Both the position numbers and the translations under genes were made by a program. Below are positions 30,884 to 56,165 of a stretch of DNA of 62,494 nt, piece after piece. Position 1 is the stretch's first letter. The number at the start of each line of letters is the position of its first letter. The DNA comes from an uncultured Desulfuromonadales bacterium (lineage in GTDB: Bacteria; Desulfobacterota; Desulfuromonadia; Desulfuromonadales; Geopsychrobacteraceae): NCBI GenBank assembly GCA_947259685.1, contig CAMYNC010000021.1, positions 1 through 62,494 on the forward strand, in the 5' to 3' direction. The notes below the pieces were generated by a model, which made no database searches, had not been told where the DNA came from, and was given only the letters and a program-made list of their open reading frames with translations.

Positions 30884-31286
30884 CCAATGACAGTCTCACA
30901 GATCCAAGGAGTTTAGAAGTGTGACCTGCCCCCTGTTATGAATCAAACCTACCACCCTCCCCCTGAAAGGGATGGGGTCTGTGAAAAATTTTATTATTTG
31001 TACAATTAGCCCTCCTGTGTCCCCCCGCGGCCGCAATCCCCTCAACACCTAAGAGATATGAAATCCTATTTTGACCTGATATTTGCGAAACGAATTGAAG
31101 GGACTTGCCGGTTACTCTGGTCACTGTCGCAACTGTCTAAGCTTCAAGAATTCCTCAACTATAAATTTTATAGAATTGAAATGCCCCCACGGCCTTGTGC
31201 TTTGAAAATCGGGATGATTTTTTTCACAGACTTGACCTCTCATTAAGTTCTGGTAGAAGTAGAAACAGATAAGGATAAGAAAAGAA
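30884..31286. other. Gene-free stretch with a weak promoter
   Basis: About 400 bp without a credible gene; the short frames on both strands lack start signals and family resemblance. TTGACC (31232-31237) and TAGAAG (31254-31259), 16 bp apart, could be the promoter of the leader RNA that follows. Base composition is more AT-rich than the cluster downstream. Confidence 0.5.
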
Positions 31287-31370
31287 ATCCTGAAAAGCCA
31301 ATCCTTCCGTGAGGAGGGGACGGAAAGCGCCGGGTCTTTGTGGTTAAAGATGGCCGAGCTGCCAAAGGAT
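31287..31370 (+). promoter_or_regulatory. Candidate GEMM-I-like cyclic-dinucleotide riboswitch
   Basis: The folded parts match GEMM-I. P1 is ATCCT (31287-31291) with AGGAT (31366-31370). A stem CCTTCC/GGAGGG (31303-31308, 31313-31318) is capped by the GNRA tetraloop GTGA. The joining segment GACGGAAAGC (31319-31328) resembles GACGCAAAGC. A third stem TCTTT/AAAGA (31335-31339, 31346-31350) is followed by GGCCGAGCTGCC, comparable to AGCCGGGTTGCC in the second riboswitch of this window. The J1/2 segment reads GAAAAGCC where c-di-GMP aptamers have AAGGGC, so the base matching Vc2 G20 appears to be A. That change is associated with cGAMP-responsive variants. It lies about 160 bp before the giant-gene cluster. 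Confidence 0.6.
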
Positions 31371-31402
31371 CTTAGCTCCTGATGGTGGACTCGGCTATTT
31401 TT
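31353..31402 (+). terminator. Terminator overlapping the GEMM-like aptamer
   Basis: GCCGAG plus CTGCC (31353-31363) can pair with GGTGG-A-CTCGGC (31384-31395), followed by TATTTTTATA. The left arm is part of the aptamer, so ligand binding would block the terminator: an ON-switch layout. Confidence 0.65.
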
Positions 31403-31560
31403 ATAACCAGTACCCAAGATGCTACGTAATTATCAAGGTATGAATGTACTGTCGTCCACGATGCGCCGTCATTCGTCCTGAGGTTTACGAACGGGCCCAC
31501 CCCTTTCTTGTGGGGGAAATGGTCCCATAAATTCTTGAATTCGATTCCAGGAGCGCTACG

Positions 31561-34057
31561 ATGTCCCTTTTGGTATTACCACATTGCGATATCCATCTTG
31601 CGCTTGATGATGTGTCTCGATCAAGCGTTGAGTTCAAACTGTTTCGTCAGAGAGAGACTGACGCCTCGGCGCAATTATCGCTTAGCGATCAAACCAGGGC
31701 CGGAACCTATCTCACATTTTCCCCTTATGAGGCAACCGGCAGTCGGCTGACTACTAGTCACGTCACAGTCACCACTACGGGAAACATCGGCACCATCACC
31801 GGAGTTTCCCTCGGCACCACTTTCATCATAATGAAGGCCGCATCGAGGTATATCGTGGTGCGGGTCCAGGTGCATCAATCGATGGTCGGCTGGTGGTTCG
31901 GCAATACTTCGATCACGACTGCAGTTGATCCAGATTTCGGCCACGCACAGCCGTCGATCTATGCCCAGTTTTCTGACGACAATACAGCAACCAATCTGGT
32001 GGGCACCGATCTAGTAGGCGATATCACCGGGCACGGCTTTGTACCGCTGGCCATCGCTGATACAACAAAATGTGTTTTAGATGATCGCAATCAGCGCGGG
32101 CGGCTACGCGGTGTGGCCCCCGGCAATACCAGTTTGTCTGGAACACTGTTGGGTGTACCTCAGCAGATGGACATTAAGGTCGTCGATTACGGGGCGGCGC
32201 GAGAGAATCTGGATGTCATTACGCGTGGAAAGCGGGCTATCACGGATTCACATAACATCTTGTTCCTGCCCGAAGGATTCACCTCCTCACAAGCCGATAA
32301 AAACATGTTTGCAAAGATTGTGCGCAGGTCCCAGCGAAGTATGTTCAGCGCACGGCGGCACGAACCTTTTGGCGCACTGAAACACAGTTTCCGTGTTTTT
32401 TCGGCCTACGAGGAAAGCGCCCAGGACCTAATGACCGTCGGCTATAAAATCAAGGACAATACAAATGGCGATGTACCCAAAGGCGTGCGCCTGCCACCGG
32501 ATAAACATGATTACGACGTTGCCGATGGCAAGTACAGCGTGGCCCAGCTTGTAAAAATTGTCGGGTTTCCGAAACGCGGCGAGACCGGAACTACTTCCAA
32601 TCTCAAGCAACTCTGGAGCGGCCAGTCTTTGACAGGATACACAGATACCAAAGTGGACGCCTCGGTTGTAAATGCCTGGAAAGCCTCTACCTCGGTAGGC
32701 ATTCTCGAGGCAAGAGACACATATTTTGGTTTAATGGTTGGTAACCGCAATGCCGACCAGAAATCATACCGAGACGCCAATCCGGTCATCAACCGGCCTG
32801 CAAATGACGTGGCCACGGATACCAACCTCAGGCCATTCGTCAACGCGGTCTATAACTGGTTCCGAACGCGCGGGACGACACGGTCAATAAGTCTCGACCC
32901 CAGGCGTCATCCGCCAGAGCTTTACCGCAGAAGTCGCGAATCCCGTGACAGTGCTGTTATGCGCTACATCGGCAACTCAGCACTGAAGTTATCTCCTAAC
33001 ACTGCAATCGGTAACGAATGGGTGCCTACCCCCGGGAGTTTTATCCAAAGTCGTGGCCTGGTGTGCTTTGTGGTTAAAGACGGTGTCCATGGCGGTACAA
33101 ACTTTAACAAAAACACGCTTATCGGTGTAACGATAAGAAAGGGAAGAACGCTTGGATTTGAATATGACCCAAACAATCCGGCCACGCGCAAGGTAATGCG
33201 GCGCAATCCTTCAAACCCGCCCGAGCTGGATCTCATTCCCACCATTAACACCAGGGATCGTGGGGCTTTGGCTGCTCAATGTCATCGGCGCCAATCTCGA
33301 CGCCATCGGTTTCGATACGATTCAGCTGTCTCCCGCTGGTGCTACCGGCCGTGAAATCGACCCGTCGCAGATCAAGTGGGCAAGCCTGCCACGTATCATC
33401 CGCTCGGCCAGACTGCTCACCAATGCCAGTATCAGCGGATCAACCATCGTGGTAATGATTGACCCCGACTGGGTTGGACCCTTTGAACTGGCACGCAGTA
33501 ATACCGAAACTGTGGTGCTACGCAGCTGGTCACCGACCGATCGTGGCGGGCAGCTGGTCGATGCAGTCGAGATCAATAATCTCAACGTCAGCGACACTGA
33601 TTTCAATACGGGCAGGATTGTTCTGGGCGGTTCGGGTGTTCCTGGCTCGCTGCCAACAACCTTTGGACCTGGCTCTATGATCTATGTGCAGCGAAAAAAT
33701 GATGAAAACAAGACCCTGACACTGATCGAGCGCGAGGTGCTGGCGCATATGAACAACCATCACCTTCCGCTGAACAAGAATACCGATCATCAAAACAGCA
33801 GCAATAAAAACGATGAGCCCGTTTCGATTGACGGTGATTTTAAACCGCCCTGCTCCTCTTCAACGTTAATCGGCCTGTTCGAAGGCGCCAATACATTTTC
33901 GGGCAAGATGTACCGACCTGCCGGGGCTTGTAAAATGCGCAAGAAGGCTGGTGGCTTTTGCCATGTTTGCAAATGGTTGATTACCAACCGGGTTGATGCC
34001 AACCGGCATATCTGGGTCGATTTCGAGTTCTATCCGGAGGCCAAAAAAAATGAGTGA
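31561..34057 (+). pseudogene. M64-like metallopeptidase gene with a +1 frameshift
   Basis: Two frames form one protein of about 831 aa. The first (from ATG 31561, with AGGAG 8 bp upstream) has a bacterial Ig-like segment (about 60-105), then the M64-like start HNILFLPEGFT (about 231-241). The second frame, which takes over at a GGGG run (33262-33265), ends with GLFEGANTFSGKMYRPAGAC and FCHVCKW, resembling the end of M64 (IgA-type) peptidases. Skipping one G joins INTRDRG to LWLLNVIG. No HExxH zinc motif is present in either frame, so the product may be inactive even if the shift is repaired. No signal peptide is visible. The last bases overlap the next gene. Confidence 0.6.
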
Positions 34058-37000
34058 TCAGGGTGCACTGGAAACTGTCGTCGGTGAAATCGGCAAATTG
34101 CTGTTACCGCTGCGCAATGCCACTGCATCACCCGAGGCTTTCCAATCCCTGCTATTCGAGCTCGGCTGGGATGCTGATGTCATTCCGCAACCGATTGCGG
34201 CGTTGGTGCCGGATATTCAGATCCTGTTTGATCGGCTGCAGAAAATCCTTGGCAGCGGACTTTCAGCGGATGCCTCAGCCAATACCGGTGGCGTCGAGGT
34301 TGAAATCGACGTTCCACTGACAGATCTACTGGACACAATCGAGGCTGTCGCTAGGCTGGTTAACGGTATCAGTGATCTGGCCAGTGCCCCGTCCTCAAGC
34401 TTTCCAGCGACGCTAAACGCCGACAATTTTAAAGGTGAGTTTCCCGAACAATTACTCGGCTATCTCTTTGCGATCTATCTTGAGCGACATCAGCCACGAC
34501 TGGGACAGATGCTGCGCGCTTTCGGTGTTATCAAGCGCCTGGATGTCAATGCTGCTGGCAATCGACCCGGATACACACAGGTACGCTTTGATTTCAGTGA
34601 CCTACCTGAAATTTTCTCGAATCCAGGTGTTATTTTCAAGAACGCATTTAACTGGGGCAGTGACGATTTCGATTTTGAAGAAGTCACCATGGTCGCGGAC
34701 GATCTGTTCAGCGCCTTCGGTCTGGAAACCTATTATGAACCGTTCAACACCGCCGCCGCTCAAGCTCTTGAGGCAGGCGCCATCATTGACGGAAATCCCG
34801 AGCGCAGCCGCCTGCGCGGGCAGTTTTTCCAATATACCCGTAATACCTCCACCCTGACCGCTGATATCGGCCTGTTCTCATTACCCAGGGTGGGCGCACG
34901 CAAACCGGGCATCGCGCTAATGCCAGCGTTTTCCGGTGCGCTGAACCTACGAATGGAGTTAGGTCCAACCATAGCCGTTAGCTTTGCCGCCGATGTCGAT
35001 CTTGCCGGTGGTGTCGGCATCATTCTTCGCCCGGATGAGGGCATTGAGCTAATCCTTGGTTTTGAAAGCGACAGCGCACCGACCACTGCCAAGGGCTCGG
35101 GCACGGTGTCGATCGACTATGCGCCCAGCGCCACCGAGCCCACGATCATACTGGGCAACAAGGACGGCATGCGGCTTGAATTTGGTTCGGCTGGGGGAAC
35201 CGGCGGCTTCCTGCTGGATGCGGATGGCGCGGTCGATGTCTTTGTCGAGGCCGAAACCGAAGGTCTGGCCTTTGTTCTCGACGGTAGCGGCTCGGACGGA
35301 TTTCTTAGCACCATCTTGTCGGGAATAAACGGCCGGTTCGAGGCCGATCTCGGCCTCGGGGTCAGTCTCGCTCGAGGCGTCTATTTCCGCGGCACTTCGC
35401 ATCTGGAAATCCAGCTTCCGGCACATATCGACCTGGGACCGATAGAGATACAGGGCCTGACTATTGCGGTATCACCCTCCGGCGATGGCCTGCCGATCGA
35501 TCTGGGCACCACCTTTAAGGCCAAGCTGGGGCCACTTGACGCGGTGGTTGAAAATATCGGGCTGCGTACCAACCTCTCGTTCCCTGGAGACGGCGGCAAC
35601 CTGGGACCGGTCGATCTGGATTTTGGCATCAAGCCGCCAACTGGAGTTGGCCTGTCGCTGGATGCCGGGCCGGTTAAGGGCGGTGGATACCTTTTTTTCG
35701 ACCCAGACCGTGGTGAATACGGTGGCGCGCTCGAACTGCGCATCCTCGACTTTTTGAATGTCACCGCCATCGGGATTATCACCACTAAGATGCCCGATGG
35801 CTCGGACGGATTCTCGTTCCTGGCGTTGATCAATGTGCAGTTCAGCCCGGGCATTCAGCTGGGTTTTGGATTTACCCTGATCGGCGTCGGCGGACTGGTT
35901 GGTTTGAACCGATCGATGGATCTTGATGCACTAGTCGAAGGTGCCCGCTCGGGCAGTCTGGAAAACCTGCTGTTCCCCGAGGATGTGGTGGCCAATGCGC
36001 CCAGCATCATCTCGGATCTCAAGCTATTTTTCCCAGCAGAGGAAGGTACGTTTCTGGTTGGCCCGATGGTCAAGTTTGGCTGGGGCACGCCGACCCTGAT
36101 CAGCCTGTCGATGGGCATCATCATCGAGATTCAGGGCAATATCGCGATTGTCGGCAAGCTGATTGTGGCTATTCCTGATGAAAGCGTGCCGCTGATCATT
36201 ATCAAGGTCGCCTTCATGGGCACCATCGAATTTGACAAGAAACGCGGCTGGTTCTTTGCCAATATCTATGACAGCCGCGTGGTGTTCATGACCCTCGAAG
36301 GCGGCATGGGCGTATTGGCGGCCTTTGGCGGTGACAGCAATTTCATCGTCACGGTGGGCGGTTTTCACCCGGCCTATAACCCGCCCAGCCTGCCCTTTGT
36401 CGATATCCGCCTGATTACCATCAACATCCTGAACACGTCGGTGGCGCGTATCCGGATCATGGCCTATTTCGCGGTCACTTCGAACACGGTTCAATTCGGG
36501 GCGCGGGCTGAGCTTTACTTCGGCGTTTCGATCGCGCGGATCGAGGGGCATCTGGCCTTTGACGCACTGTTCCAGTTCTCGCCCTTCTATTTCATTATCT
36601 CGATCTCGGCATCGCTGTCGGTCAAACTATTCGGCGCCGGGTTGTTCTCGGTGCGCTTCCGCGGCTCACTTGAGGGGACCTCGCCCTGGCATGTCGAAGG
36701 CACGGGATCGATCTCGATCCTGTTCTGGGACGTCGATGTCGATTTCTCTCATACCTGGGGCGAGGACGAGGACACCAAGCTGCCTCCCGTTTCAGTCATG
36801 CCTCTGCTTGCCGCCGAATTTGCCAAAGACGAAAACTGGACCGCCGAGTTGGAAAATCAGGAAATGCTGTCGGTTTCGCTGGCGCCACCCCAAGGTGTCG
36901 GTGAACTGGTATTGCACCCGGTCGGCACACTGCGAATCACCCAGCGCGCAGTACCGCTAGGTATTGAGATAGACAAGCTGGGCGCGCAGCGACCAGATGA

Positions 37001-37556
37001 TGCCAATCGGTTCGACATCAAAGTCAAAACCGGGGGAGTCGAAAAACGCGCCGACATTCAGGAAGATTTTGCCACCGCTCAGTTCCAGGAACTGTCGGAC
37101 AGCGACAAGCTGAAGGCACAGGATTACGAGAAGGAAGACGCCGGGCTTGAGCTATCGTTGAGCGGTCCGCAGGCCAATACCAGCTTTGTCGCCAAACGCA
37201 TCGCGCGCTATGAGCAAGTCATTGTCGACAACAATTTCAAACGCAAATTGTTTCGGTTTCTGCCGCTCATTGGAGGACTCTTCGCCCATTTCCTCGCCGG
37301 TAATGCCATGTCGCGCTCGGTCACCTCAGCGCGCAGCAAGTCGTTGGCCAAGCCCTTTGATGACAAGATCAAATTGCACGCCAACGGTTATGTGGTTGTC
37401 AATCTGGCAGACAATTCAACCCTTGACTCACAGGCCGGTAGCTTTGGCTCACGAGCCCGCGCCGAACAGGCAATCAAAGACGAAATCGCGGCCAATCCAG
37501 GATTGGCCGGTCAAATCCACATCGTGCGCGCGCATGAAATGAAGGAGGCGGCGTGA
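34050..37556 (+). CDS. Very large DUF6603-like protein
   Basis: A 1168-aa protein without signal peptide. After a helical N-terminal part (about 1-130), the chain is a long run of hydrophobic, glycine-rich beta repeats. The segments PPTGVGLSLDAGPVKGGGY, GFGFTLIGVGGLVGLNRSMD and LVGPMVKFGWGTPT (about 540-700) match my memory of DUF6603 proteins, a family without known function. The middle and later parts (about 700-930) look like transmembrane-type or amphipathic beta strands. The C-terminal about 200 residues are charged and more soluble. The ATG at 34050 overlaps the end of the peptidase gene; an extension to 33993 is inside that gene. Confidence 0.7.
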   Translation: MSDQGALETVVGEIGKLLLPLRNATASPEAFQSLLFELGWDADVIPQPIAALVPDIQILFDRLQKILGSGLSADASANTGGVEVEIDVPLTDLLDTIEAVARLVNGISDLASAPSSSFPATLNADNFKGEFPEQLLGYLFAIYLERHQPRLGQMLRAFGVIKRLDVNAAGNRPGYTQVRFDFSDLPEIFSNPGVIFKNAFNWGSDDFDFEEVTMVADDLFSAFGLETYYEPFNTAAAQALEAGAIIDGNPERSRLRGQFFQYTRNTSTLTADIGLFSLPRVGARKPGIALMPAFSGALNLRMELGPTIAVSFAADVDLAGGVGIILRPDEGIELILGFESDSAPTTAKGSGTVSIDYAPSATEPTIILGNKDGMRLEFGSAGGTGGFLLDADGAVDVFVEAETEGLAFVLDGSGSDGFLSTILSGINGRFEADLGLGVSLARGVYFRGTSHLEIQLPAHIDLGPIEIQGLTIAVSPSGDGLPIDLGTTFKAKLGPLDAVVENIGLRTNLSFPGDGGNLGPVDLDFGIKPPTGVGLSLDAGPVKGGGYLFFDPDRGEYGGALELRILDFLNVTAIGIITTKMPDGSDGFSFLALINVQFSPGIQLGFGFTLIGVGGLVGLNRSMDLDALVEGARSGSLENLLFPEDVVANAPSIISDLKLFFPAEEGTFLVGPMVKFGWGTPTLISLSMGIIIEIQGNIAIVGKLIVAIPDESVPLIIIKVAFMGTIEFDKKRGWFFANIYDSRVVFMTLEGGMGVLAAFGGDSNFIVTVGGFHPAYNPPSLPFVDIRLITINILNTSVARIRIMAYFAVTSNTVQFGARAELYFGVSIARIEGHLAFDALFQFSPFYFIISISASLSVKLFGAGLFSVRFRGSLEGTSPWHVEGTGSISILFWDVDVDFSHTWGEDEDTKLPPVSVMPLLAAEFAKDENWTAELENQEMLSVSLAPPQGVGELVLHPVGTLRITQRAVPLGIEIDKLGAQRPDDANRFDIKVKTGGVEKRADIQEDFATAQFQELSDSDKLKAQDYEKEDAGLELSLSGPQANTSFVAKRIARYEQVIVDNNFKRKLFRFLPLIGGLFAHFLAGNAMSRSVTSARSKSLAKPFDDKIKLHANGYVVVNLADNSTLDSQAGSFGSRARAEQAIKDEIAANPGLAGQIHIVRAHEMKEAA

Positions 37557-37575: not shown

Positions 37576-40500
37576 ATGAGCGACACGCTAGGCACCTATT
37601 CCTTCCTGCCCTGGCTACGCCAGGGGATCGCCAACAATATCACCGCGGCGGATAACGATCCTGCAGTGATACTGCGCGCCAGCATACCGGTTGAACTCGA
37701 GCTGACCGGTAAGGGCGTCGATGGCGGCGCCAACCTGACCCAGACCATCCCTCGGGATGTCGGTCTCTATGGACCGGGCGACATTATCGGACTCGACAAA
37801 GACGCGATCATCAAAACCGAGCCCGGTCACTGGATCACCAATTTTGAACCCAATTACATGGCCTACGTGGATTTTAACGATCCCGATCTGTTGTGGCGCT
37901 ACTCACCGGCGGCGCCAGATCTGGCGGTGCATCGGCTACGCCCATGGATGACGCTGATCGTGGTGACCGAGGACGAAATCGAGTCCGGTACACCGATCAA
38001 CGGACCCCTTGACGCGGTGACGTTGAAAGCAACCGCCGATCAGGTCTTTCCACCTGCCGATCAGCTTTGGGCCTGGGCCCATGTGCATGTCAACAAGGAC
38101 CTAGTCAAGTCAGAGGGCGTAACCACCGTCGCCAATAGCGACGCCACTCGATCGCGAATGGAAACGCTGGTGACCCATTCCCCCGATGACGCCTATTGCC
38201 GCTTGCTTTGTCCGCGACGGCTTGAGGCCAATATCGGCTATCACGCCCTTCTCGTGCCTACATTTGAGGCTGGCCGTCTGACCGGGCTTGGGCTTGACCC
38301 AGGCGCGAACCCAGCGGTCTTTGCCACTCGCTCAGCCTGGTCCGAGTATGATGACCGACCGCAGGGAGGCACCTATCCGGTCTATCACCGCTGGTATTTC
38401 AAGACCGGCACAGTGGGCGATTTTGAATATTTGGTAAGGCTGCTCAAGCCGCGACCACCCAATGCCAAGCTGGGCCGGCGTGACATGGATGTGCAAACAC
38501 CGGGGTCAAACATTTCCGGTATACGCGAAGAAAAACTGAAAGGGGTTTTGCGTCTGGGCGGTGCTCTGAAAGTACCCGACGAGGCCCTGACCGACAAACA
38601 AGAAGAAGAGGCGCAGGAGTACGAGGACTGGGACGCGCCCTATCCCCATGATTTTCAGGTCGAGCTGGCCGAGTTCGTTAATTTATCAGAAGAGTACGAC
38701 GCCAAGCCCCCAGGCGATGCCAATAGTCTTGCAACCAATCTCGCCCCTGCCATACGTAACGATCCAGACCCGCTAATCACGCCACCGATCTACGGGCGCT
38801 GGCACGCACTGACCGAACGCGTATTGTTCGACGCCGATAGCAGTGACGCGCCGCAGCGCCAGAACTGGCTGCACGAACTTAATCTTGATCCACGCTGGCG
38901 GGTGCCGGCGGGCTTTGGCACCGAGATTGTGCAGGACAAACAGGAAAAGCTCATGGATGACGCCTGGGATCAGGTGGGTGACATCCTCGAGGCAAATGCA
39001 CGAATTCGACGCGCCAAGTTGGCCCAGGCCACCACAACGGTTTGGCACGCTGACCATCTGGCGCCGGTGGCGACCGCGCTTGGACCGGCGAGGATGCTGG
39101 TGATGACCGCGCCGGTGCAGCGCCGAGTGCTGCAGGACGGCATGACCTTGCACCACCGCGTCAACCAGTCAATGGTGCCGCGCGCGGCGCTGTCGCCGAC
39201 GCTACGCCGGGCGGTCCGACCACGCGGAAAAGTCGCGCGCCGGCTAAACCTTGAATCCCCCGGTGGGCCGCTCGAGCTGATTCCTAAAATCAATGCAGGT
39301 GAAGTCAGTGCCGCGCCGCCGCGCAAGCCTTCTGACACGCTGCCCACCGTCGACGCCGTGGCCGATGAAATTGGCCCCGCCGCAGTGCCGAATGCATTGG
39401 CCGATTGGCTGCGCCGCTATCCATGGCTGCCAATCGCCGCGCTGATCCTGTTTCTACTGCTGGCGGTGATCCTTTTTATCACAGGCCTCGCAGCACTTGG
39501 CGGCATTCTGGGCGTTGTAGGCGCCGGCGTCGGCGCCTATCTTGAGTGGCTGCGCCGTCAGCTTAAGGTTACCGATGCACTGCACCCGGTCGGCCAGGCA
39601 CCAGATGTCATCGACGCACTACCTGACTTCCCGAACTTTGATCTGGAAGAATTTGGCGAAGGCGACACCCCCACCAGTGACGGCGGGCCGGACAGCCCGG
39701 TAGCGGTGCGATTCAAGGCGGCACTGAAAGATGTTCATAGAATTCTGGATACATCCGCGACGCTGGGTGCGCTGCCGCAACGCACGCCGCTGAATCTATC
39801 TGCGGTATCAGTCGCGACATTAAAAGGGTTGGACCCCAAACACACGATTCCATCCTACACCCTGGCAGGCATCACTTTTCCGGCGCGGTTCGTCGATCAA
39901 TTCACCGAAACCTTTCGCGAAGCGATGGCCTATCCTGAATTCGACACCCCGATGTACGAAGCCCTTTTGGATATGTCGAGCGAGCATTTCCTACCGAATA
40001 TCGACAAGATCAAGCCCAACACCATCACTCTTTTGGAAACCAACCAGCGCTTTATCGAAGCTTATATGGTGGGCCTCAATCACGAATTCGCGCGCGAACT
40101 TTTGTGGCGCGAATATCCAACCGACCAGCGCGGTAGCTATTTCCGTCAGTTTTGGGATGTCAGCGGGGTGATCGACCGTGAAGGGTTGTCAAAAGAAGAG
40201 ATGCGCGAGAAATACAAGGATATTCCGCCACTGCATCTGTGGTCGAAATTCTCCAACCTGGGTGATCACGACCATCGCGAAAAGCCCGGAGACAACGAAG
40301 AAGAGGTGGTGCTGGTGATCCGCGGCGAGCTTCTGAAAAAATACCCCAACGCGGTGATCTATGCCCACCGCGCCAAGTGGCACTTGAAGGACGGCAAGAT
40401 CGACACCAGCCGCGAACGGATGCTGGATACGGACGCCGCGCCCACCGAGGTGATCAAGACTCCGCTCTACGAGGCACGTGTGAAGCCCGATATCTTTTTT

Positions 40501-40893
40501 CTGGGCTTCGATCTGACTGCTAAGGAAGCCAAGGGCGGCAGTGGCCGCGGCACCGATACCGAGCCAGGCTGGTTCTTCGTTATCAAGGAACGTCCTGGTG
40601 AACCGCGATTTGGTCTCGATATCAATCGGACCGGTCCGATGAATGTCTGGAATGATCTGGCCTGGCCCGATGTTTTACCCGAAGGCGGCAGGTTCCTAAA
40701 AATCGGTGAAATGAATCCTCCGCCCCTTACCGAACCATTGCCAGGCACCGAACACGAGGAAAAGATCGAACAATGGAACGACGACAAAGCCATCACCTGG
40801 ACGAACAACATCAACGCCGCTGAGCTGGCCTATATCCTCTACCAGGTCCCGGTTTTGGTCGCCGTCCACGGCAGTGAAATGCTGCCCCGTTGA
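37576..40893 (+). CDS. Unrecognised 1105-aa cluster protein with a central membrane hairpin
   Basis: I do not recognise a named family. The N-terminal part begins LGTYSFLPWLRQGIANNI and continues with segments such as VGLYGPGDIIGLD, WITNFEPNYMAYVDF and HRLRPWMTLIVVTEDEIE; these are well-formed, conserved-looking blocks rather than low-complexity sequence. A hydrophobic hairpin (about 614-662, two helices) splits the protein into two large soluble halves; no signal peptide is seen. It starts 19 bp after the DUF6603-like gene and ends 9 bp before the next. Hypothetical proteins with a similar PWLRQG start occur in other bacteria, so this is probably a family that travels with its neighbours. 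Confidence 0.75.
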   Translation: MSDTLGTYSFLPWLRQGIANNITAADNDPAVILRASIPVELELTGKGVDGGANLTQTIPRDVGLYGPGDIIGLDKDAIIKTEPGHWITNFEPNYMAYVDFNDPDLLWRYSPAAPDLAVHRLRPWMTLIVVTEDEIESGTPINGPLDAVTLKATADQVFPPADQLWAWAHVHVNKDLVKSEGVTTVANSDATRSRMETLVTHSPDDAYCRLLCPRRLEANIGYHALLVPTFEAGRLTGLGLDPGANPAVFATRSAWSEYDDRPQGGTYPVYHRWYFKTGTVGDFEYLVRLLKPRPPNAKLGRRDMDVQTPGSNISGIREEKLKGVLRLGGALKVPDEALTDKQEEEAQEYEDWDAPYPHDFQVELAEFVNLSEEYDAKPPGDANSLATNLAPAIRNDPDPLITPPIYGRWHALTERVLFDADSSDAPQRQNWLHELNLDPRWRVPAGFGTEIVQDKQEKLMDDAWDQVGDILEANARIRRAKLAQATTTVWHADHLAPVATALGPARMLVMTAPVQRRVLQDGMTLHHRVNQSMVPRAALSPTLRRAVRPRGKVARRLNLESPGGPLELIPKINAGEVSAAPPRKPSDTLPTVDAVADEIGPAAVPNALADWLRRYPWLPIAALILFLLLAVILFITGLAALGGILGVVGAGVGAYLEWLRRQLKVTDALHPVGQAPDVIDALPDFPNFDLEEFGEGDTPTSDGGPDSPVAVRFKAALKDVHRILDTSATLGALPQRTPLNLSAVSVATLKGLDPKHTIPSYTLAGITFPARFVDQFTETFREAMAYPEFDTPMYEALLDMSSEHFLPNIDKIKPNTITLLETNQRFIEAYMVGLNHEFARELLWREYPTDQRGSYFRQFWDVSGVIDREGLSKEEMREKYKDIPPLHLWSKFSNLGDHDHREKPGDNEEEVVLVIRGELLKKYPNAVIYAHRAKWHLKDGKIDTSRERMLDTDAAPTEVIKTPLYEARVKPDIFFLGFDLTAKEAKGGSGRGTDTEPGWFFVIKERPGEPRFGLDINRTGPMNVWNDLAWPDVLPEGGRFLKIGEMNPPPLTEPLPGTEHEEKIEQWNDDKAITWTNNINAAELAYILYQVPVLVAVHGSEMLPR

Positions 40894-40902
40894 GGACCCG
40901 CT

Positions 40903-43900
40903 ATGAGTGAATTTGACGATCTCCAAACCAAGCTAGCCGAAGCTCAGAAGACGAAAGCCGGTGCTGCTCGAAAACTGTTTTCTGACCGTCAGTTGCTGCA
41001 GCGCGCCAAGGGTAAACGCCGCGATGCTGAGCGAGTTGCCATCGATCCGGTAGATGATGGTCGGCTCGTCGAGATCGACGCGGAGATAACACGACGCGAG
41101 GCGGCTGTCGAGGCAGCGAGAGCCGATCTAAAGGCGGCCCACGGCGCCGCTGATGAAAGGCTGCGGCCGTTCCTCGATCTAACCGATCCGCGTGAGCATC
41201 TCGCCAATCTGGATGACAACATACCGATCCTGTTGATGCCGCTCAGGATCGAAACTCGATTTCGGCTGGCTGATCCTAATAGCGATAGCGGCCGCGATAC
41301 ACAAAGCGAATTGTGGGTGCGGGTGTTTCCCGATGATTTCGCCGTTGACACGTTTGAAGAAACCCTTTCCGAAAGCGAGCTGCGTCGGCTCAAGGTTTAT
41401 TGGGCAGCCATGTGGGCAGCCGGCGGCGGCGAGGCAGACCAGCGCGGGGCATGGAAGGTGTTTGCCGGCGCGGTTGGGTCGGGCCGCGCCCATTGGCTGC
41501 AAAGCGTCTATTTTCCCGACGGCGATCCACCGCTAAAGGCCGAGGGTGTACCCTTGTTGATCCTCGCCATCCCAACCGAAGAAGCGCTGATCGACCCCGA
41601 GCGGGCGCAGCTCGCGACCTTCTGGGAAGCGCATTGGCGCGCCGGAGACAATGCCGCCGCTCAAGCTGCCGCCGCGCAAGCGCTGGCCTTGGCGCTTGGT
41701 GATGCGCGGGCGGAGTCATTGGTTAAGAGCCATGCTCCGGCCAACATATCCGACCCCGCTCCGGCAGGCACCGACGCGGCGACCGTGCCGGTCGAGGTGG
41801 CCTTTGTTGTCTTTCCGTCGAGCGCCGAAATGCCGATCCGCGAACACAGCTGGAGCAGCGCTCCCAAGGTCGAGATCTTGCCCGACCGGCTGGTGTTGGT
41901 CGGCTATAACAATGGAGAAAAGACAATTGAAAGGCTGGGAAATCCGATCCCCGATAGTCTGGTTGTGGCGCCGGATCCGGACGCTGACGAAGATGATCAA
42001 CTAAAGCCCGAAGGCCCAGATAACGAGGACATTACCCTGGGCGCCGAGCTGGAATGGATCGCTGATTTCGACAAGGCGGTAGCAATCGGCATGGGCTTTC
42101 GCATTCCACTCGATCCAATTGCGTTTCGAACCGGATTTGATCAGCTGATGGTGCTTGGCGTACGACTGAAGGCCGATGCCAGCGCCAGTAAGGATGCATT
42201 GGAACAGCTGATCACGCGCCATAAACAATCACGCGCCGGGTTTGAGCTATTGCCACAGGGCATCCCAACCAACAACCTCGAAACCGAAGGTGCAGGGTAT
42301 AAGCGCAAATCCGACGCTGACCTAAGTTTCGACCGCTATTTCGGCACCCCGCCGGACGACCCCGCTGGTTGGTTCGAAAAACGTGACGGCCGCTGGCTGG
42401 CCGACACGCTGGGCCTGCCGCCGTCCTTGTTTTTTGACGTCGCCGGCGGCCGCGGGGTGGATATCCGCGACGCGCTGGCGATGAACACCTTACTGTGGCC
42501 AGCGACCGCAGGCTATTTTATGGACGCGATGTTGGACACGGTTTTCGATACCGATACCATCACCGACACGCGCGATTTCTTTGTCCGCCATGTCAGCGCT
42601 CGCGGCACCGTTCCAGTGATCCGCATCGGCCGTCAGCCTTATGGCATCCTGCCCGCTACGCCGCGCTCGCGCATCGGCTGGATGCGCCCGCGGCACAGCG
42701 ATACCGCAACCACAGCGGTTCCGTCGGGCAATTCGAATCTACCTTTCCTGCGGCGCCTCTATTCTCTTCTGCGTCTGGTCGAGACCGATTGGCGAGCGCT
42801 CGACAACCAGGTCTCGTGGATTGGTAAACCCGGCATTGAACAGCATCAGGTATTGTTGGATGTGCTGGGCCTGCATCCCGCTTCGGTCGAGTACTACCAG
42901 CGCTATGCCGAAAGTTTTAAACAACTCTACAACCGCATGCGACTGGAAGGTGCTGGCGGTGCGTTTGCTGCTGCAATCGCCGCACTGTCCTATACCTTTA
43001 GTGGACAACAACTGCTGACGCGGCTGGGTCATGTATCCGGCGATAATGAGGGGTTGCCGGATATTTTAGAAAAGCTGTTCCTGCGTGATCCAAACCTGCT
43101 GACCGGTGGTCTGGTGCAGGACATTCCACTGTCCGAAGCCGATCCGCTTCGAACCTATACCGAAACTGGCGAGAATTATTTGACCTGGTTGAATGCTGCG
43201 GCGGGCACCTCCCATGACATGCTCAGGCTGCAAAAAGGTTTTGAGGGTGGCGTCCCGACCGCGCTGCTTTATCTGGTTGCACATCACGCGCTGGATCTCA
43301 GCTTTGTCGAAGTTAGTCAAGTATTGCTGGTACAAGCCGGGCTGATTACGGCCGAGCAACGCTTTGCCCGCCGGCGCGAAGCCCAGTTTCTGCATGTCGA
43401 TGCCGCCGCAATCGACTCCCCTGCTCTCATGGCCGAGAGCCGCTGGACCGATCTCTACCGCGCCGAGCCGGTGATCACCGGTTCGACAAACCTAACCATT
43501 GGTGAGCACATACCAAAGATCATCAAGACCCACGTCGCGACCGCCTATCTCAGTCGCCAGCTTGACGCATTGCGGCGGCTCGAAAGCAGGCCCTCGGCCG
43601 CGCTGGAGAGAGCCTTTGCCGAGCATCTGGATCTGCTCAGCTACCGGCTTGATGCGTGGTATGGCGGCATTCTGAGTTATCAGCTCGAGCGAATGCGGTT
43701 TGGCGCTAGCGGATCGGCCGACGTCACCGAACCGTTGCCCGGGGATAACGGCGATCTGGCAACAACAATAGACAGCGATGGTGACGGCCTGCCGGATCAA
43801 CCCGACCCTGCGAACGCACCCGACCAGCCAGGCGGCGCTGCCGAAGGGCTGTATCTGGGGGCCTATGGCTGGCTTGAAGATGTGCGGCCTGAATTCAAAA

Positions 43901-46677
43901 CCTTGACAGAAGTTGAGCTGGAACCGGAACTTGCGAAGATCTTCAAACGGCCCGACGATGTGCCACCAGTAACCGACAATCGAAACGTCGGCTATATTCA
44001 TGCGCCGTCGCTGAATCATGCGGTTACCGCAGCGGTTTTGCGAAACGGTTATTTGTCCAATGCCACACCCCAAAACCCCGGTAGCCTGGCAATAAACCTG
44101 TCTTCCGAACGGGTGCGTCTGGCGTTGCAGATCATCGAGGGCATGAAATCGGGCCAAAGTCTGGGCGCTCTGCTAGGATATCAATTCGAGCGTGGATTGC
44201 ACGACCGGCACAATGTCGAGGTGGATGCCTTTATTTACGAATTGCGTTCCGCTTTTCCGCTGGCCTCAGGTCGGCTCAAGGCAACCCGTGCCCCGCGCAC
44301 CGATGAGCTGGGCTTGAAAGTGAACATTCGAAAAGTCGAAGCGCGCAACGTCCTTGATGGACTGGCGCTGGTGGAACACATACGCGACAGCGGCAACAAA
44401 ATCTATCCGTTCGGCAAGGGTGACATCCTGCCCGACGCCACTGAGGCCCAACGCGATGCGATCAGCGAAGAGGCTGACCGAATCGCCAATATCGCCGACG
44501 CCACCGCCGATCTGGCAATGGCCGAATCCGTGCATCAGGTGGTTCAGGGCAATTACGATCGGGCTGGCGCAACCATGGATACGTTCTCGAAAGGCAAATT
44601 CCCCTCAACGCCGGATGTAATCCGCACACCGCGCTCGGGCACCGGGTTGACCCATCGAGTCGGGCTGCACCTTGCCACCGGACTCGATCCCTCCACCGCG
44701 CCGGGCGCGCGAGCGCGGTCGGAGCCAGCGCTGAACGACTGGTTGGCTGGACAACTACCGGCCCCGGCACGGGTGGTCTGTCAGGTCCGACTGGCCGACC
44801 CCGACGACAATTCCGAAACTCTGGTGCTGGTTAGCCAGACTGATCTCGGGCTTTCGGCTCTCGACATGCTCTACCTGCTCGACGTCGATGACCAGCAGTC
44901 GATGAGGACGCTGGACGATTTGGTCGAGCGCCATATTATTGCCACCGAGACCCCGCGCCCGGATATCAGCCCGTCGATCGGTTATCTTGAACGGCTCGCT
45001 GCAGTCCCTGATCACGTACCGTTTTTTGAACTGGCGGCGCAGATCCGCCCGTTGCGGGGTTTGCTACTGGACTCCCGCCCGCTACGCCCGACCGATCTGG
45101 CACTGGCCCAGGAGGCCAAACGCGCAACCGATGCCGGCCCCAGCCTTGATCCGCAACGCATCACTCTGAATCGTACAGCGATAGACGCGGCCCGCACGTC
45201 GTTGACCGCATTCCACACCCCGCTTGCTGCCAGAATCGAGGGCAAAGAGACGCCACAGATCGTCGCCGAGATTGATGGCAATATCACTGCCTTCGTCGGC
45301 GAGATGTCAAAACTGGCCGCGTTTTCTGATCTGCGCAGCGGTACCGGACAGGTGTTTGAGGACCGGCGTAAGATATTCGCTGGTTTGCGGGCGGTACTGT
45401 CAAAATATGCCGACCGCTGGACTGCGCGGCTGGCCGAGTTTGACCTCGCTATCGCCGACTACGATGCTCTGCCGGTGGCGACGGACGATGCGGCGCGCTT
45501 CCTTGCGCTGCAAAAGGCAGAGCGGTTGATCACGCTAACCCCGACCCCGGACGACATGCTGCCGCCCAATCCGGCAACCTTCCGCACAGATCAAGACTCA
45601 CGCCGAGGCGCGTTTGACGCTCAGCTGACGACCCTGACTGCGCTTGGCACAGCGCACGCCACAATCTCAGGATTGGTGGCCGGGATCCAGGCCGAAACAG
45701 CGGCCAATGTCACCTTCATGCTGGAGCCCCTTGATATTGAGAAGGGCACCCGAGCGATCCTCCCGCTGGCCCAGGACATGGCGAAACGGGCAGCGGCGCT
45801 GATTAATGCACTGACCAGCCGAATCGACCAGATAGACGCTTATCTTGCTGAGGCGGCTGCGGCCAGCAGCGGTAATGCACAGGTCGCCGCACTCACGACA
45901 GCAGCGCAGGTGATGTTCGGCGAGACCTTTCAGATCGTGCCAGAATTTATTTTACCTGCGGAACAGGCGCAGGAACTTGCCAATGCCTGGGGTCCGGGGC
46001 TAACCGCCGCCGACGCCATTCTAGATCATGTCCAAACCACCCTTGGCCGGCCATTTGCGGTCGACGACTGGTTGCACGGCATCGCAAGGGTGCGCACCAA
46101 GATGCGCCAAATCGAGACCGCCGGGATGCTGGCCGAGACCTTTGGCAGCGGCAGCATAACCCTACAGCCGCTGCAATTGCCACACCGACCCGGCCTGCCT
46201 TGGCTGGCGTTAGACTTGCCCGAGCTCGACGCCGAGGGCGAACCCTTTGCCGTGGACGAAGACAAGCTACTCTATACCGCGCATTACCCGGCCGCGCTCA
46301 ACGCCAACGGGCCGATTGGCGGCTTGTTGCTGGATGAATGGACCGAAGTGATTCCCTCGCGCAGCGAAGAAACCGGGCTGGCAGTGCATTACGATCGCCC
46401 CAACTCCGAAGCGCCGCAAACCCTTCTTCTGGCCCTTCCGGCCGAATTTACCGGCGCCTGGGAATGGCCGGACCTGGTCGATACCGTACGCGAGACGATG
46501 GACATGGCGCGTCTGCGCGCGATCGAACCGGACCAAATCGACACCACCGCATACGCCCGGTTCCTGCCCACGACTGTCTCGGCCGTCACTTTTAAACCAA
46601 TCACCGCGATGCTAAATCTGGCAGCCAATAACGGGCTGGTTGCAGCTTACGTCGCCCAGGAAAGTGCCAATGACTGA
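40903..46677 (+). CDS. Giant unrecognised 1924-aa cluster protein
   Basis: The largest gene of the window. The N-terminal about 85 residues are a coiled coil (KLAEAQKTKAGAARKLFSD onward). A block then reads DNIPILLMPLRIETRF and WVRVFPDDFAVDTFEE. Near 575-590 comes VIRIGRQPYGILPATPRSR. At about 956-975 a short DSDGDGLPDQPDP loop looks like a calcium-binding thrombospondin type 3 repeat unit. The C-terminal third is rich in helix-forming Ala/Leu stretches. No signal peptide, membrane helix or catalytic motif that I know is visible. GAGG precedes the ATG. The stop overlaps the ATG of the next gene. A structural or scaffold role is possible but is inference only. Confidence 0.8.
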   Translation: MSEFDDLQTKLAEAQKTKAGAARKLFSDRQLLQRAKGKRRDAERVAIDPVDDGRLVEIDAEITRREAAVEAARADLKAAHGAADERLRPFLDLTDPREHLANLDDNIPILLMPLRIETRFRLADPNSDSGRDTQSELWVRVFPDDFAVDTFEETLSESELRRLKVYWAAMWAAGGGEADQRGAWKVFAGAVGSGRAHWLQSVYFPDGDPPLKAEGVPLLILAIPTEEALIDPERAQLATFWEAHWRAGDNAAAQAAAAQALALALGDARAESLVKSHAPANISDPAPAGTDAATVPVEVAFVVFPSSAEMPIREHSWSSAPKVEILPDRLVLVGYNNGEKTIERLGNPIPDSLVVAPDPDADEDDQLKPEGPDNEDITLGAELEWIADFDKAVAIGMGFRIPLDPIAFRTGFDQLMVLGVRLKADASASKDALEQLITRHKQSRAGFELLPQGIPTNNLETEGAGYKRKSDADLSFDRYFGTPPDDPAGWFEKRDGRWLADTLGLPPSLFFDVAGGRGVDIRDALAMNTLLWPATAGYFMDAMLDTVFDTDTITDTRDFFVRHVSARGTVPVIRIGRQPYGILPATPRSRIGWMRPRHSDTATTAVPSGNSNLPFLRRLYSLLRLVETDWRALDNQVSWIGKPGIEQHQVLLDVLGLHPASVEYYQRYAESFKQLYNRMRLEGAGGAFAAAIAALSYTFSGQQLLTRLGHVSGDNEGLPDILEKLFLRDPNLLTGGLVQDIPLSEADPLRTYTETGENYLTWLNAAAGTSHDMLRLQKGFEGGVPTALLYLVAHHALDLSFVEVSQVLLVQAGLITAEQRFARRREAQFLHVDAAAIDSPALMAESRWTDLYRAEPVITGSTNLTIGEHIPKIIKTHVATAYLSRQLDALRRLESRPSAALERAFAEHLDLLSYRLDAWYGGILSYQLERMRFGASGSADVTEPLPGDNGDLATTIDSDGDGLPDQPDPANAPDQPGGAAEGLYLGAYGWLEDVRPEFKTLTEVELEPELAKIFKRPDDVPPVTDNRNVGYIHAPSLNHAVTAAVLRNGYLSNATPQNPGSLAINLSSERVRLALQIIEGMKSGQSLGALLGYQFERGLHDRHNVEVDAFIYELRSAFPLASGRLKATRAPRTDELGLKVNIRKVEARNVLDGLALVEHIRDSGNKIYPFGKGDILPDATEAQRDAISEEADRIANIADATADLAMAESVHQVVQGNYDRAGATMDTFSKGKFPSTPDVIRTPRSGTGLTHRVGLHLATGLDPSTAPGARARSEPALNDWLAGQLPAPARVVCQVRLADPDDNSETLVLVSQTDLGLSALDMLYLLDVDDQQSMRTLDDLVERHIIATETPRPDISPSIGYLERLAAVPDHVPFFELAAQIRPLRGLLLDSRPLRPTDLALAQEAKRATDAGPSLDPQRITLNRTAIDAARTSLTAFHTPLAARIEGKETPQIVAEIDGNITAFVGEMSKLAAFSDLRSGTGQVFEDRRKIFAGLRAVLSKYADRWTARLAEFDLAIADYDALPVATDDAARFLALQKAERLITLTPTPDDMLPPNPATFRTDQDSRRGAFDAQLTTLTALGTAHATISGLVAGIQAETAANVTFMLEPLDIEKGTRAILPLAQDMAKRAAALINALTSRIDQIDAYLAEAAAASSGNAQVAALTTAAQVMFGETFQIVPEFILPAEQAQELANAWGPGLTAADAILDHVQTTLGRPFAVDDWLHGIARVRTKMRQIETAGMLAETFGSGSITLQPLQLPHRPGLPWLALDLPELDAEGEPFAVDEDKLLYTAHYPAALNANGPIGGLLLDEWTEVIPSRSEETGLAVHYDRPNSEAPQTLLLALPAEFTGAWEWPDLVDTVRETMDMARLRAIEPDQIDTTAYARFLPTTVSAVTFKPITAMLNLAANNGLVAAYVAQESAND

Positions 46678-48559
46678 ATTTATCGCCATCGAACAAATCA
46701 CCGACGTTCTAAAGGCCAAGCGCGTCTGCCCGACCATCACCATGTGGAACCGGCTTGAAGGACGGCCGCGCACCCATGAGTTCGACCGCGCGTTGCAGGC
46801 CGAGATTCGCGATCCACTGTGGATGCTGACACGGCAGTGGCAAATGGGTGAGTTTAAGGGTGATGACGCGGGCTCGCCGATCAAAGCCAAGGTTCATGTC
46901 GAAACAACTCAGATCACTAAATACCGGCCAGGGATCGACACCGGCGCAGTGCAGGAATTTCCCGATGTCCTGCCACTAGAGGCAAAGGTCGAACAGCGGC
47001 CGGTGCCAATGGCCGCAGGAAATCAGAAACTGTCCTATGATTTGCGCGTGTTGATTGGGCGACGTTGGTTGCGGTTGGCCGCCAGCGTCGAACCTGGTCT
47101 GAGCGCCAAGTTTATCGCCGCCTACCGGATCGAGATGCCCGACTCGGAGACCGCCGCCGAGGTTGCGGTAACCGGCAATCGCACTGCCTGGTCACATCTA
47201 GCTGCATTGTCGGGGCGGGCGATGGATGGGTTTGCGCTGTATACCCATCTCAAGGCAAACCCGGCCAATCACAGTCATGATGGCATCGCGCTGGACAATG
47301 CGGGCAGTGCCGGGGCGCTGGAGGCGTTGGAAGCGGGATTCACCCAATGGTTCGAGCGGCTGATCCTGCAACCGGATGCGCAGACCCCAACCGCCTGGCA
47401 ACCACCCCATCTTGAATATCAGTTCGAGGTATCGGCCCCGCGCGGCGCGGCCGAACAGCATCTTGTAGCGGATGAATATTTTCACGGCCATTTGGACTGG
47501 TACAACCTGGACATATCGCCTGGAGAAAATGGGCTGCCGCCGATTGATCCGGCACCGCCGCCAGTGGATGTCGAAGCCGCCCATACCCGCAGCTTTATCC
47601 CGGTCCCGATTAGCTTTGACGGCATGCCGCATACCCGCTGGTGGGCCTTCGAGGACGGCTTGACCAATTTCGGGGACATCACCCCGGACACGACCGAAGT
47701 GAACAAACTGCTGTTGATGGAATTTGCATTGGTGTTTGCCAATGACTGGTTCCTGATGCCGTTCACCGTCCCCGCCGGGACCATCGCCAAAGTGCGCGGC
47801 GTTACCGTCACCAACACCTTTGGCGAGCGGACCTGGATCGAGCCTTCAGGCAGTGGCAATGACGAAGACTGGCAACGCTGGACGATGTACTCACTGTCGA
47901 CTAAGGGCAACCAGGATGTGCCCGCCGATCTCAGCCTTGTAGTGGTCCCGAGCGTGCCGAAGATACAGGAAAGCGAGCCGGTCGAGAGTATTCACCTGGT
48001 CCGCGACGAGGTGGCCAATCTCGTCTGGGGAATCGAAACCGTGGTGTCCTCGCCCACCGGCGCGCCGATGTCGGGTCGCCGCGCCGGCCTCGACACCAAG
48101 CGGGCGCTGACCCGGATCGCCAGGGACCAGTTCCCGCCCGGACCCGAGGAAGAGCTTCTCGATAACGCCGCTGCTATCCGCTACCAGCTGATGACTAAAG
48201 TGCCCGAGAACTGGATTCCTTTCATCCCAGTTCATATCGCCAACAACCACCGCGAGGTGCAGCTACGACGCGCCGCGATGCCGCGGATCATCGAGCACAC
48301 GGATTTTTCGGTCGAGAAAATCCGCCCCCGGACACAACTTCTGCGCCCGGGCCTCGACCCTGTACCCAACGCCAATTATGACCTGCACGAGGAAGAGGTG
48401 CCGCGCGCAGGCACCCATGTCAGCCAAAGCTTTCAGCGCACCAGGTGGTATGACGGCCAAGTCGTGACCTGGCTCGGGGTGCGCAAGACGACGGGCCGCG
48501 GTGAACGGTCAAGCGGTCTGCGCTTCGACCAGATCCGCCCCGTGCGCCGCAAGACCTGA
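46670..48559 (+). CDS. Unrecognised 629-aa cluster protein
   Basis: The last gene of the cluster. The N-terminal third has a striking block, PLWMLTRQWQMGEFKGDDAG (about 45-65), that looks conserved; further blocks are HFHGHL-like (EYFHGHLDWYNL), LLLMEFALVFANDWFLMPF and WGIET. No signal peptide or membrane helix is seen. The ATG at 46670 overlaps the stop of the giant gene by 8 bp, so the two are coupled; an extension to 46640 lies inside that gene. I do not know its function. Confidence 0.78.
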   Translation: MTEFIAIEQITDVLKAKRVCPTITMWNRLEGRPRTHEFDRALQAEIRDPLWMLTRQWQMGEFKGDDAGSPIKAKVHVETTQITKYRPGIDTGAVQEFPDVLPLEAKVEQRPVPMAAGNQKLSYDLRVLIGRRWLRLAASVEPGLSAKFIAAYRIEMPDSETAAEVAVTGNRTAWSHLAALSGRAMDGFALYTHLKANPANHSHDGIALDNAGSAGALEALEAGFTQWFERLILQPDAQTPTAWQPPHLEYQFEVSAPRGAAEQHLVADEYFHGHLDWYNLDISPGENGLPPIDPAPPPVDVEAAHTRSFIPVPISFDGMPHTRWWAFEDGLTNFGDITPDTTEVNKLLLMEFALVFANDWFLMPFTVPAGTIAKVRGVTVTNTFGERTWIEPSGSGNDEDWQRWTMYSLSTKGNQDVPADLSLVVVPSVPKIQESEPVESIHLVRDEVANLVWGIETVVSSPTGAPMSGRRAGLDTKRALTRIARDQFPPGPEEELLDNAAAIRYQLMTKVPENWIPFIPVHIANNHREVQLRRAAMPRIIEHTDFSVEKIRPRTQLLRPGLDPVPNANYDLHEEEVPRAGTHVSQSFQRTRWYDGQVVTWLGVRKTTGRGERSSGLRFDQIRPVRRKT

Positions 48560-48850: not shown

Positions 48851-50413
48851 CCGCCAAAGGAGGCATTTTTACCTCCTTTGGCGGAAATAGATGCCTTATA
48901 CTTTTGTCACCACAACAAAAAAGAGAAGGCGTCTATGAAAACTATCGCATTTCAATCCGAATTTCGTCCAGCACTTCCTGTTGTTTTTGGCGCAAAAGAT
49001 TATCGTGAGTTCCGGGCCACGCTCGAGGAAATGGATCGCATCCTGACAGCAACGGGAATCGAACATCGAATGCTCGTTCAGCATTTAGAATCGTCAACCC
49101 GGTCTCGCCCCGCAAAACACAGCCAGAGAACGTACAAAACGTTACGCCGCGCTTTGCGTTATTCCATTCTCCTGGGGATGACGGACCTTTCGTATCGAGA
49201 ACTTTCCCATCGTGTTGCGGATAGCTCACTTTTTCAGTGGTTTACCCATACTGCTGAGGTAGACGGGGTTCGCCCCGTCGCCAAGAGTACCATTGAGCGG
49301 TTTGAGAAAATCTTCCCCAGCGAAGAAATTTCAAAACTTATTCATGATTGCAATATGGCGGTCGCCGATCCTGTAGGCGCACAAGAGTTGCTCTCCACGG
49401 GAACGGCCTTCCGTTTCGATGAGATCTTTGCCGACACGACCTGCGTGAAGAGCAATATCCACTTTCCAGTTGATTGGGTCCTGCTCCGCGATGCGACCCG
49501 AACGCTCATCAAGGCCATTGAGCTTATCCGCTTACAAGGATTGAAGCACCGCATGGGAGACCCGAAAAAATTCCTGCGTGAGATGAACAAGCTCTGCATC
49601 GAGATGACGCATGTTCGCAAGAAGAAAGGCGCAAGGAAGATGCGCAAAAAGATCTTCCGGCGCATGAAGAAACTGATGAAGACGGTCGAAAACCACGCCT
49701 GCAACTATCATCATGTCCTTGAGACACGCTGGCAGGAAACCGACTGGAGCGAGACCCAGACTCAGGTGGTCCTCGATCGCATCCAGAATGTCCTCGACCA
49801 GCTCCCACAGGCAGTGCATCAAGCGCATGAACGTCTTATTGGCGAACGCCGGGTTGCGAATCAGGATAAAATCCTCAGTCTCTACGAACCTGACGCCCAT
49901 GTTCTCGTCCGCGGCAAAGCTGATGCCGAGGTTGAATTTGGCAACGGTTTCTACCTGGCGGAACAATCAGACGGCCTGATTGTTGATTGGCAATTTATCA
50001 AAGAGCAACCGGCAAGCGATAATAAGCTGGTCGCAGGGAGCATAGCGCGACTCACAAAAATCTACGGACCCCCGAAAAGCTACACCGGAGATCGTGGATT
50101 CGATGCTCAAGATAACCGGAATGATCTTGAAACCCACAATATTTTCAATGGAATCTGCCCCCGCTCCGTTGTGCACCTCAAAGAACGGCTTGAAGACGAT
50201 TATTTCTGCCAATTACAAAAACGTCGTGGCAGCACCGAAGCCCGCATCAGCATCTTCAAAAACATCTACCTTGGAACTCCCCTGAGAAGCAAAGGCTTCG
50301 AAAACCGCAAAGTCCGTATTGAGTGGTGCATTCTGGCGCACAATCTCTGGAAGTTGGCGCGCATAGCTGTGCAACAACGAGAAAGTGCGGCGGAACAAAA
50401 AGCAGCAGCCTGA
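48851..50413 (+). mobile_element. Insertion sequence (ISNCY-like), ends not resolved
   Basis: One transposase gene with an upstream perfect 13-bp hairpin, CCGCCAAAGGAGG (48851-48863) with CCTCCTTTGGCGG (48872-48884). The hairpin would trap any ribosome-binding site in read-through transcripts, as many insertion sequences do. The true ends lie outside these coordinates. I did not find terminal inverted repeats or a target duplication by eye. Confidence 0.6.
48935..50413 (+). CDS. DDE-type transposase
   Basis: A 492-aa transposase. The N-terminal region contains RTYKTLRRALRYSILLGMTDLSYRELSHRVADSSLFQWF; the catalytic part includes DEIFADTTCVKSNIHFPVDW, a later SYTGDRGFDA and a C-terminal RRGSTEARISIFKNIYLG with E. 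These are candidate D, D, E residues. It resembles the unclassified (ISNCY) group rather than IS3, IS5 or IS66. The ATG at 48935 follows AGAAGG; the frame is intact, so the element may still be active. Confidence 0.85.
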   Translation: MKTIAFQSEFRPALPVVFGAKDYREFRATLEEMDRILTATGIEHRMLVQHLESSTRSRPAKHSQRTYKTLRRALRYSILLGMTDLSYRELSHRVADSSLFQWFTHTAEVDGVRPVAKSTIERFEKIFPSEEISKLIHDCNMAVADPVGAQELLSTGTAFRFDEIFADTTCVKSNIHFPVDWVLLRDATRTLIKAIELIRLQGLKHRMGDPKKFLREMNKLCIEMTHVRKKKGARKMRKKIFRRMKKLMKTVENHACNYHHVLETRWQETDWSETQTQVVLDRIQNVLDQLPQAVHQAHERLIGERRVANQDKILSLYEPDAHVLVRGKADAEVEFGNGFYLAEQSDGLIVDWQFIKEQPASDNKLVAGSIARLTKIYGPPKSYTGDRGFDAQDNRNDLETHNIFNGICPRSVVHLKERLEDDYFCQLQKRRGSTEARISIFKNIYLGTPLRSKGFENRKVRIEWCILAHNLWKLARIAVQQRESAAEQKAAA

Positions 50414-55963: not shown

Positions 55964-56050
55964 TTCTCCGATAAGGGCAAAACCAGAGCGATCTGGCGAC
56001 GCAAAGCCACGGGTCCTTCAGCATCAGGACAGCCGGGTTGCCGAAGAGAG
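55964..56050 (+). promoter_or_regulatory. Cyclic-di-GMP-I (GEMM-I) riboswitch aptamer
   Basis: P1 is TTCTC (55964-55968) with GAGAG (56046-56050). The conserved J1/2 AAGGGCAAA is followed by CCAGA/TCTGG capped by the GNRA loop GCGA (55983-55996). Next come GACGCAAAGCC (55998-56008) and the P3 region CGGGTCC...GGAC, and the 3' AGCCGGGTTGCCG. Every major GEMM-I landmark is present. The base matching Vc2 G20 is G, so the expected ligand is c-di-GMP. Confidence 0.9.
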
Positions 56051-56129: not shown

Positions 56130-56165
56130 GTCCGCAACCGACACAAGAGATACGGGCGATTGCAT

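Follow-up and report, generated by a model that had tools for sequence, protein, structure and literature searches.

A probable c-di-GMP-I riboswitch, predicted to act as a transcriptional ON-switch, precedes a conserved DUF6603 gene cluster

The closest described systems are the Vc2 c-di-GMP-I aptamer of Vibrio cholerae (RF01051), the 3',3'-cGAMP riboswitches of Geobacter (GEMM-Ib; Gs1761 and pilM) and the c-di-GMP-I-GGC family (RF03167). The published account of the Geobacter cGAMP aptamer gives J1/2 as A9-A14, a C15-G40 pair in P2 and ligand contacts at A14, A41 and C75 (PMC6274999); in our mapping A14, C15-G40, A41 and C75 would correspond to A20, C21-G46, A47 and C92 in Vc2 numbering. Related work equates G11 of Cd1 with Vc2 G20, reports that point mutations in lower P2 shift affinity and selectivity, and describes the pilM riboswitch of Geobacter metallireducens as an ON-switch whose terminator sequesters C75 (PMC9262584). 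An A20G replacement in the Gmet_0970 cGAMP riboswitch is reported to confer selectivity for c-di-GMP (PMC6456294). Gmet_0970 presumably carries the C-G pair beside position 20.

The window analysed here is the whole stretch of 62,494 nucleotides. It holds two above-cut-off matches to the c-di-GMP-I clan, at 31287-31366 and 55967-56046. Ligand contacts are given in Vc2 numbering (G20, A47, C92), which we take to map onto the window as shown in the features of the first switch, all on the + strand:

31232..31259, +: possible, weak sigma-70-like promoter, TTGACC-16-TAGAAG (by eye)
31287..31370, +: c-di-GMP-I (GEMM-I) aptamer, P1 to P1 (RF01051, 58.0 bits; P1 letters checked individually)
31287-31291 with 31366-31370, plus G31292-C31363, +: P1 (letter-by-letter check)
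31293..31297, +: J1/2, AAAAG, with G31297 as the Vc2 G20 equivalent (register of both Rfam models)
31298..31323, +: P2, lowest pair C31298-G31323 (Vc2 21-46), then C31299-G31322, GUGA loop at 31309-31312 (Rfam, letter check, covariation)
31324..31360, +: A31324 (A47 equivalent) and a short P3 (31326-31360) (Rfam alignment, letter check)
31361..31363, +: G31361, C31362 (C92 equivalent) and C31363, which is paired to G31292 (letter check)
31346..31404, +: predicted intrinsic terminator, 23 pairs (31346-31402) with a U-run at its end (folding, shuffles)

RF01051 matches 31287-31366 on the + strand with 58.0 bits (curated cut-off 35, E 9.4e-9), and the parts stand in GEMM-I order: P1, a P2 capped by a GUGA (GNRA) loop, GACGGAAAGC and P3. 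The initial annotation had recognised a GEMM-like riboswitch from these same elements, P1, the GNRA stem, the joining segment and the third stem, and had named the Rfam c-di-GMP-I models as the means of checking it; the RF01051 score bears this out. RF03167, listed as a clan member on 31200-31560 at a loose threshold, reaches 55.5 bits against its cut-off of 59, and A31324 occupies the 47 column, after GACGC, where that consensus has G; membership of the window aptamer in RF03167 was dropped on these two grounds. The folding energy of 31280-31376 is not special (z -0.53, with 55/200 shuffles equally good), so the case for an aptamer rests on the covariance model. Judged by its sequence, the GEMM-I RNA before the giant-gene cluster is real.

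The aptamer shares with Vc2 the three-stem order, the GNRA loop, the junction letters and the equivalents of G20, A47 and C92 (G31297, A31324 and C31362). It differs from Vc2 in its lowest P2 pair, which is C-G rather than G-C, in a J1/2 with one base less and in a short P3. J1/2 has 5 nt, one below the usual 6; over 160 aptamers, 6 nt fits 107, 5 and not 6 fits seven (the window included) and neither fits well in 46. P1 carries a two-base bulge and P3 a G-A mismatch. Together with the short J1/2, these mean that the affinity of the aptamer for its ligand may be low.

The P2 pairing must fix the register before position 20 can be read, and doing so corrects the specificity call made for this RNA. 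Both Rfam models put G31297 at the conserved G that precedes the two-pair base of P2. Beside it, C31298-G31323 is a standard pair with its letters exchanged relative to the consensus G21-C46, and it is here that the window departs from consensus. The initial annotation had placed an A at Vc2 position 20. This was ruled out: G31297 would then face G31323 and the internal loop would have to take up one more base, and relatives keep a compensated C-G at this pair.

A model built from the window aptamer and one relative (L121) to test the register matched 95 of the 107 genomes in the L001 family. L001 is a Woeseiaceae MAG that encodes an 88% identical DUF6603 protein and is the nearest relative found. 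The covariation alignments were fitted to a model already containing pair 21-46; in the first of them, 64 of the 75 distinct rows have G-C at this pair, 11 have C-G and none has lost the pairing, and the covariation score of the whole structure was reached by 0/500 shuffles. The class was sampled as well (49/369 genomes with a match), and the 29 matches read in 28 new loci, with others listed left out, gave 21 G-C, seven C-G and one gap; G20 accompanies the C-G pair in six of the seven and A20 in one. The compensated exchange in relatives supports the register and hence G20 in the window. The cGAMP reading rests, as far as the alignments tell, on a misregister.

RF01051 matches are present in 91/101 genomes of the L001 family, with up to 21 in one genome, and the exact-letter pattern of the window aptamer core matched 1/101 family genomes. 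The survey comprised 134 distinct aptamers, two in the window and 132 in the family (137 rows, three identical ones removed; the family has further matches). Because the sampling favours high RF01051 scores and close kin of the model, the counts are not population frequencies. The combination G20, G21-C46, A47 and C92 is found in 112 of the 134, and two more differ solely at pair 22-45. G20 with C21-G46 and C92 occurs in 11, the window among them, and three others have G20 and C21-G46 with U at the C92 column; taken together, G20 with C21-G46 accounts for 14/134 (window included), and for 6/28 of the readable aptamers from the class. A20 occurs with G21-C46 in four and with C21-G46 in two.

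That the window RNA is a GEMM-Ib riboswitch responsive to cGAMP, as had been suggested at first, is very unlikely. The window and the Geobacter RNAs do have in common the C-G lowest P2 pair (Gs C15-G40, here C31298-G31323), A47, C92 and a predicted ON-switch logic in which the terminator takes the ligand-pairing C. The defining A is absent, since position 20 is G (G31297), and with it goes the diagnostic substitution on which the cGAMP argument stood; the A20G change reported for Gmet_0970 moves selectivity from cGAMP to c-di-GMP (PMC6456294). The C21-G46 pair is at most a partial echo of GEMM-Ib and is no marker of cGAMP by itself, because it also co-occurs with G20 in Gammaproteobacteria.

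The GEMM-Ib-like signature proper, A20 with C21-G46, was observed in three genomes of the gammaproteobacterial family and class (L123, L124 and L212). We take Ser at the Hypr position to be the signature of Hypr-type GGDEF domains for the purpose of this survey. Of the 33 GGDEF matches listed for these three genomes we took 30, of which 25 were readable at the Hypr position and five were not; Ser was found in 0/25 (24 Asp, one Asn), which also speaks against GEMM-Ib.

As the window has G20, and A20G renders a cGAMP riboswitch c-di-GMP-selective, c-di-GMP is the expected ligand of the window switch, though its affinity may be shifted and it may show some promiscuity. We regard it as quite unlikely that the RNA is a promiscuous or retuned c-di-GMP riboswitch in which C21-G46 and the 5-nt J1/2 alter affinity or admit cGAMP. 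Such a reading draws on the effect of lower-P2 point mutations on affinity and selectivity (PMC9262584) and on the recurrence of the flipped pair with G20, with A20 and three times with U at the C92 column. Against it, the flip combined with G20 and C92 occurs in several genomes that also carry canonical switches, which fits a neutral compensatory change.

A broader and unlikely version of this idea is that C21-G46 marks a branch of gammaproteobacterial GEMM-I RNAs that keeps recurring, with G20, A20 and G20/U92 types, and in which the flip would alter ligand choice or affinity, the window being a member of the terminator type. Were it true, one cell could read two cyclic-dinucleotide thresholds or ligands through the C21-G46 branch.

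The preferred reading, a c-di-GMP ligand, bears on the second switch of the window:

55967..56046, +: second aptamer, its c-di-GMP-I letters canonical, followed by a CAP-domain gene at 56160 (RF03167)

A second c-di-GMP switch had been noted at 55964, and it is indeed present at 55967-56046, where RF03167 scores 62.8 bits (cut-off 59) and the letters at 20, 21-46, 47 and 92 are canonical. Although Rfam labels this RNA c-di-GMP-I-GGC, the letter after GACGC is A and not the G of that consensus, so that it resembles the ordinary c-di-GMP-I type. The suggestion that the two switches sense different ligands is not indicated by the letters, G31297 being the G20 of canonical aptamers; the best reading is that the switch at 31287 reads the same signal as that at 55967.

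The 3' arm of the aptamer can instead form a terminator, as had been proposed. The span given for it, 31353-31402, was too short, and the predicted stem runs from 31346 to 31402 with 23 pairs, overlapping the 3' arm of P3, C31362 and the 3' strand of P1. Since it takes in C31362 and the P1 strand, aptamer and terminator are mutually exclusive. Predicted folding gives -47.1 kcal/mol for the free leader 31280-31402 (z -3.07, 2/200 shuffles as good), -28.5 kcal/mol for the leader with the aptamer enforced and -29.8 kcal/mol for stem 31346-31402 in isolation. The cost of enforcing the aptamer is 3.3-4.1 kcal/mol at transcript ends 31369-31384 and 18.6 kcal/mol at 31402; even within the aptamer stretch, the enforced aptamer lies 3-4 kcal/mol above the free fold.

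When 31371-31402 was dinucleotide-shuffled with the aptamer held fixed, 0/1000 shuffles reached 23 pairs with the aptamer 3' end (mean 5.3, maximum 22), and in a separate set of 1000 the total fold energy was matched by 2 (z -3.6). A crude scan for hairpins formed between an aptamer and the DNA downstream of it ranked the window top of 161, with 24 pairs; three others had 23. A simple consensus scan flagged neither a terminator nor a + strand promoter at the switch; it may have missed the terminator because of its limit on loop size or because the U-run is paired.

We propose that the locus is most probably a class I c-di-GMP (GEMM-I) riboswitch working as a transcriptional ON-switch. Because the terminator consumes the 3' half of the aptamer, ligand binding should turn transcription on, and the 23-pair stem sustains the GEMM-I ON-switch with overlapping terminator of the initial annotation. 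In the absence of ligand, the nascent leader would fold into the long terminator, absorbing the 3' arm of P3, C31362 and the 3' strand of P1, and transcription would end ahead of the cluster. Co-transcriptional binding of c-di-GMP would keep P1, P2 and P3 joined and block the terminator, so that the cluster from 31561 onward could be transcribed. Aptamer homology, covarying register, the G20, A47 and C92 letters and the mutually exclusive predicted folds are directly computed; ligand, kinetics and regulation we infer. The abundance of RF01051 matches in the L001 family also favours the proposal. Weighing against it are the C-G pair shared with the cGAMP aptamer, the short J1/2, the bulged P1 and mismatched P3, the unremarkable folding energy of the aptamer, the cost of enforcing it even in short transcripts, the lack of a switch ahead of the cluster in L001 and the terminator scan that did not flag the site.

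Downstream of the switch lie six frames, again on the + strand:

31561..33354, +: cluster gene 1, 5' portion of 597 aa that by itself matches no Pfam family, preceded by GGAG at 31550
33257..34057, +: gene 1, 3' part, in another frame, with a weak, below-cut-off PF09471 (M64 peptidase) match
34050..37556, +: DUF6603 protein (PF20248, E 2.7e-129)
37576..40893, +: conserved cluster protein, 1105 aa, without Pfam family
40903..46677, +: conserved cluster protein, 1924 aa, without Pfam family
46640..48559, +: conserved cluster protein, 639 aa, without Pfam family

On our best reading the window switch would control this conserved DUF6603 cluster. The best 80 loci with DUF6603 relatives come from records of many phyla, several of them on contigs that end early; the three large neighbours occur in 77, 71 and 56 of these loci, with the order mostly kept (L004 is an exception), and gene 1 in 17. 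None of the six cluster frames matched anything in PADLOC or NCBIfam. Homologues with 85-90% identity to the DUF6603 protein exist (P0009-P0012). The single DUF6603 protein found nothing by sequence in the PDB; two weak YjgF/L-PSP matches of its profile (E 0.0034 and 0.037; 48 residues) were not believed. Its AlphaFold2 model is beta-rich, with a mean pLDDT of 54.3, too poor for a fold search. A weak DDE transposase-like match (E 0.00094, below cut-off) lies directly after the giant-gene cluster, at 48878-50413.

The M64-like gene 1 consists in the window of overlapping frames of 597 and 266 aa (at 33209-33354) and in L001 of a single 875-codon frame, and was found in 1/107 genomes of the L001 family; the split is either a frameshift or an assembly error. 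L001 has the cluster, with no such aptamer in the 479 bases 5' of the gene, so the switch was gained in the lineage of the window or lost in that of L001. An Rfam scan of 6/80 cluster loci gave no family at cut-off, and model R1 run over all 80 gave a best score of 15.9 bits (E 0.37), none convincing.

The split first gene, open in L001, the absence of a switch there and the bulged P1 of the window could be taken to mean that the RNA is a decayed remnant, aptamer-like with its switching lost. We hold this to be extremely unlikely: the junction letters and P2 pairs are undamaged, a remnant would hardly keep 23 pairs overlapping the aptamer (0/1000 shuffles), and faulty assembly may account for the frameshift.

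With a working c-di-GMP switch as the preferred reading, c-di-GMP would be linked, in one lineage, with a widely distributed, uncharacterised DUF6603 cluster, which hints at a possible role of that cluster in surface or biofilm life. Among the papers searched, none joined Woeseia with riboswitch and none dealt with DUF6603.

The three aptamers of the survey that combine G20 and C21-G46 with U in the C92 column (L131 743-861, L133 1501-1620 and L159 122-240) possibly have an altered ligand. Those of L131 and L133 precede similar predicted exported proteins, the start of which is also visible in L159.
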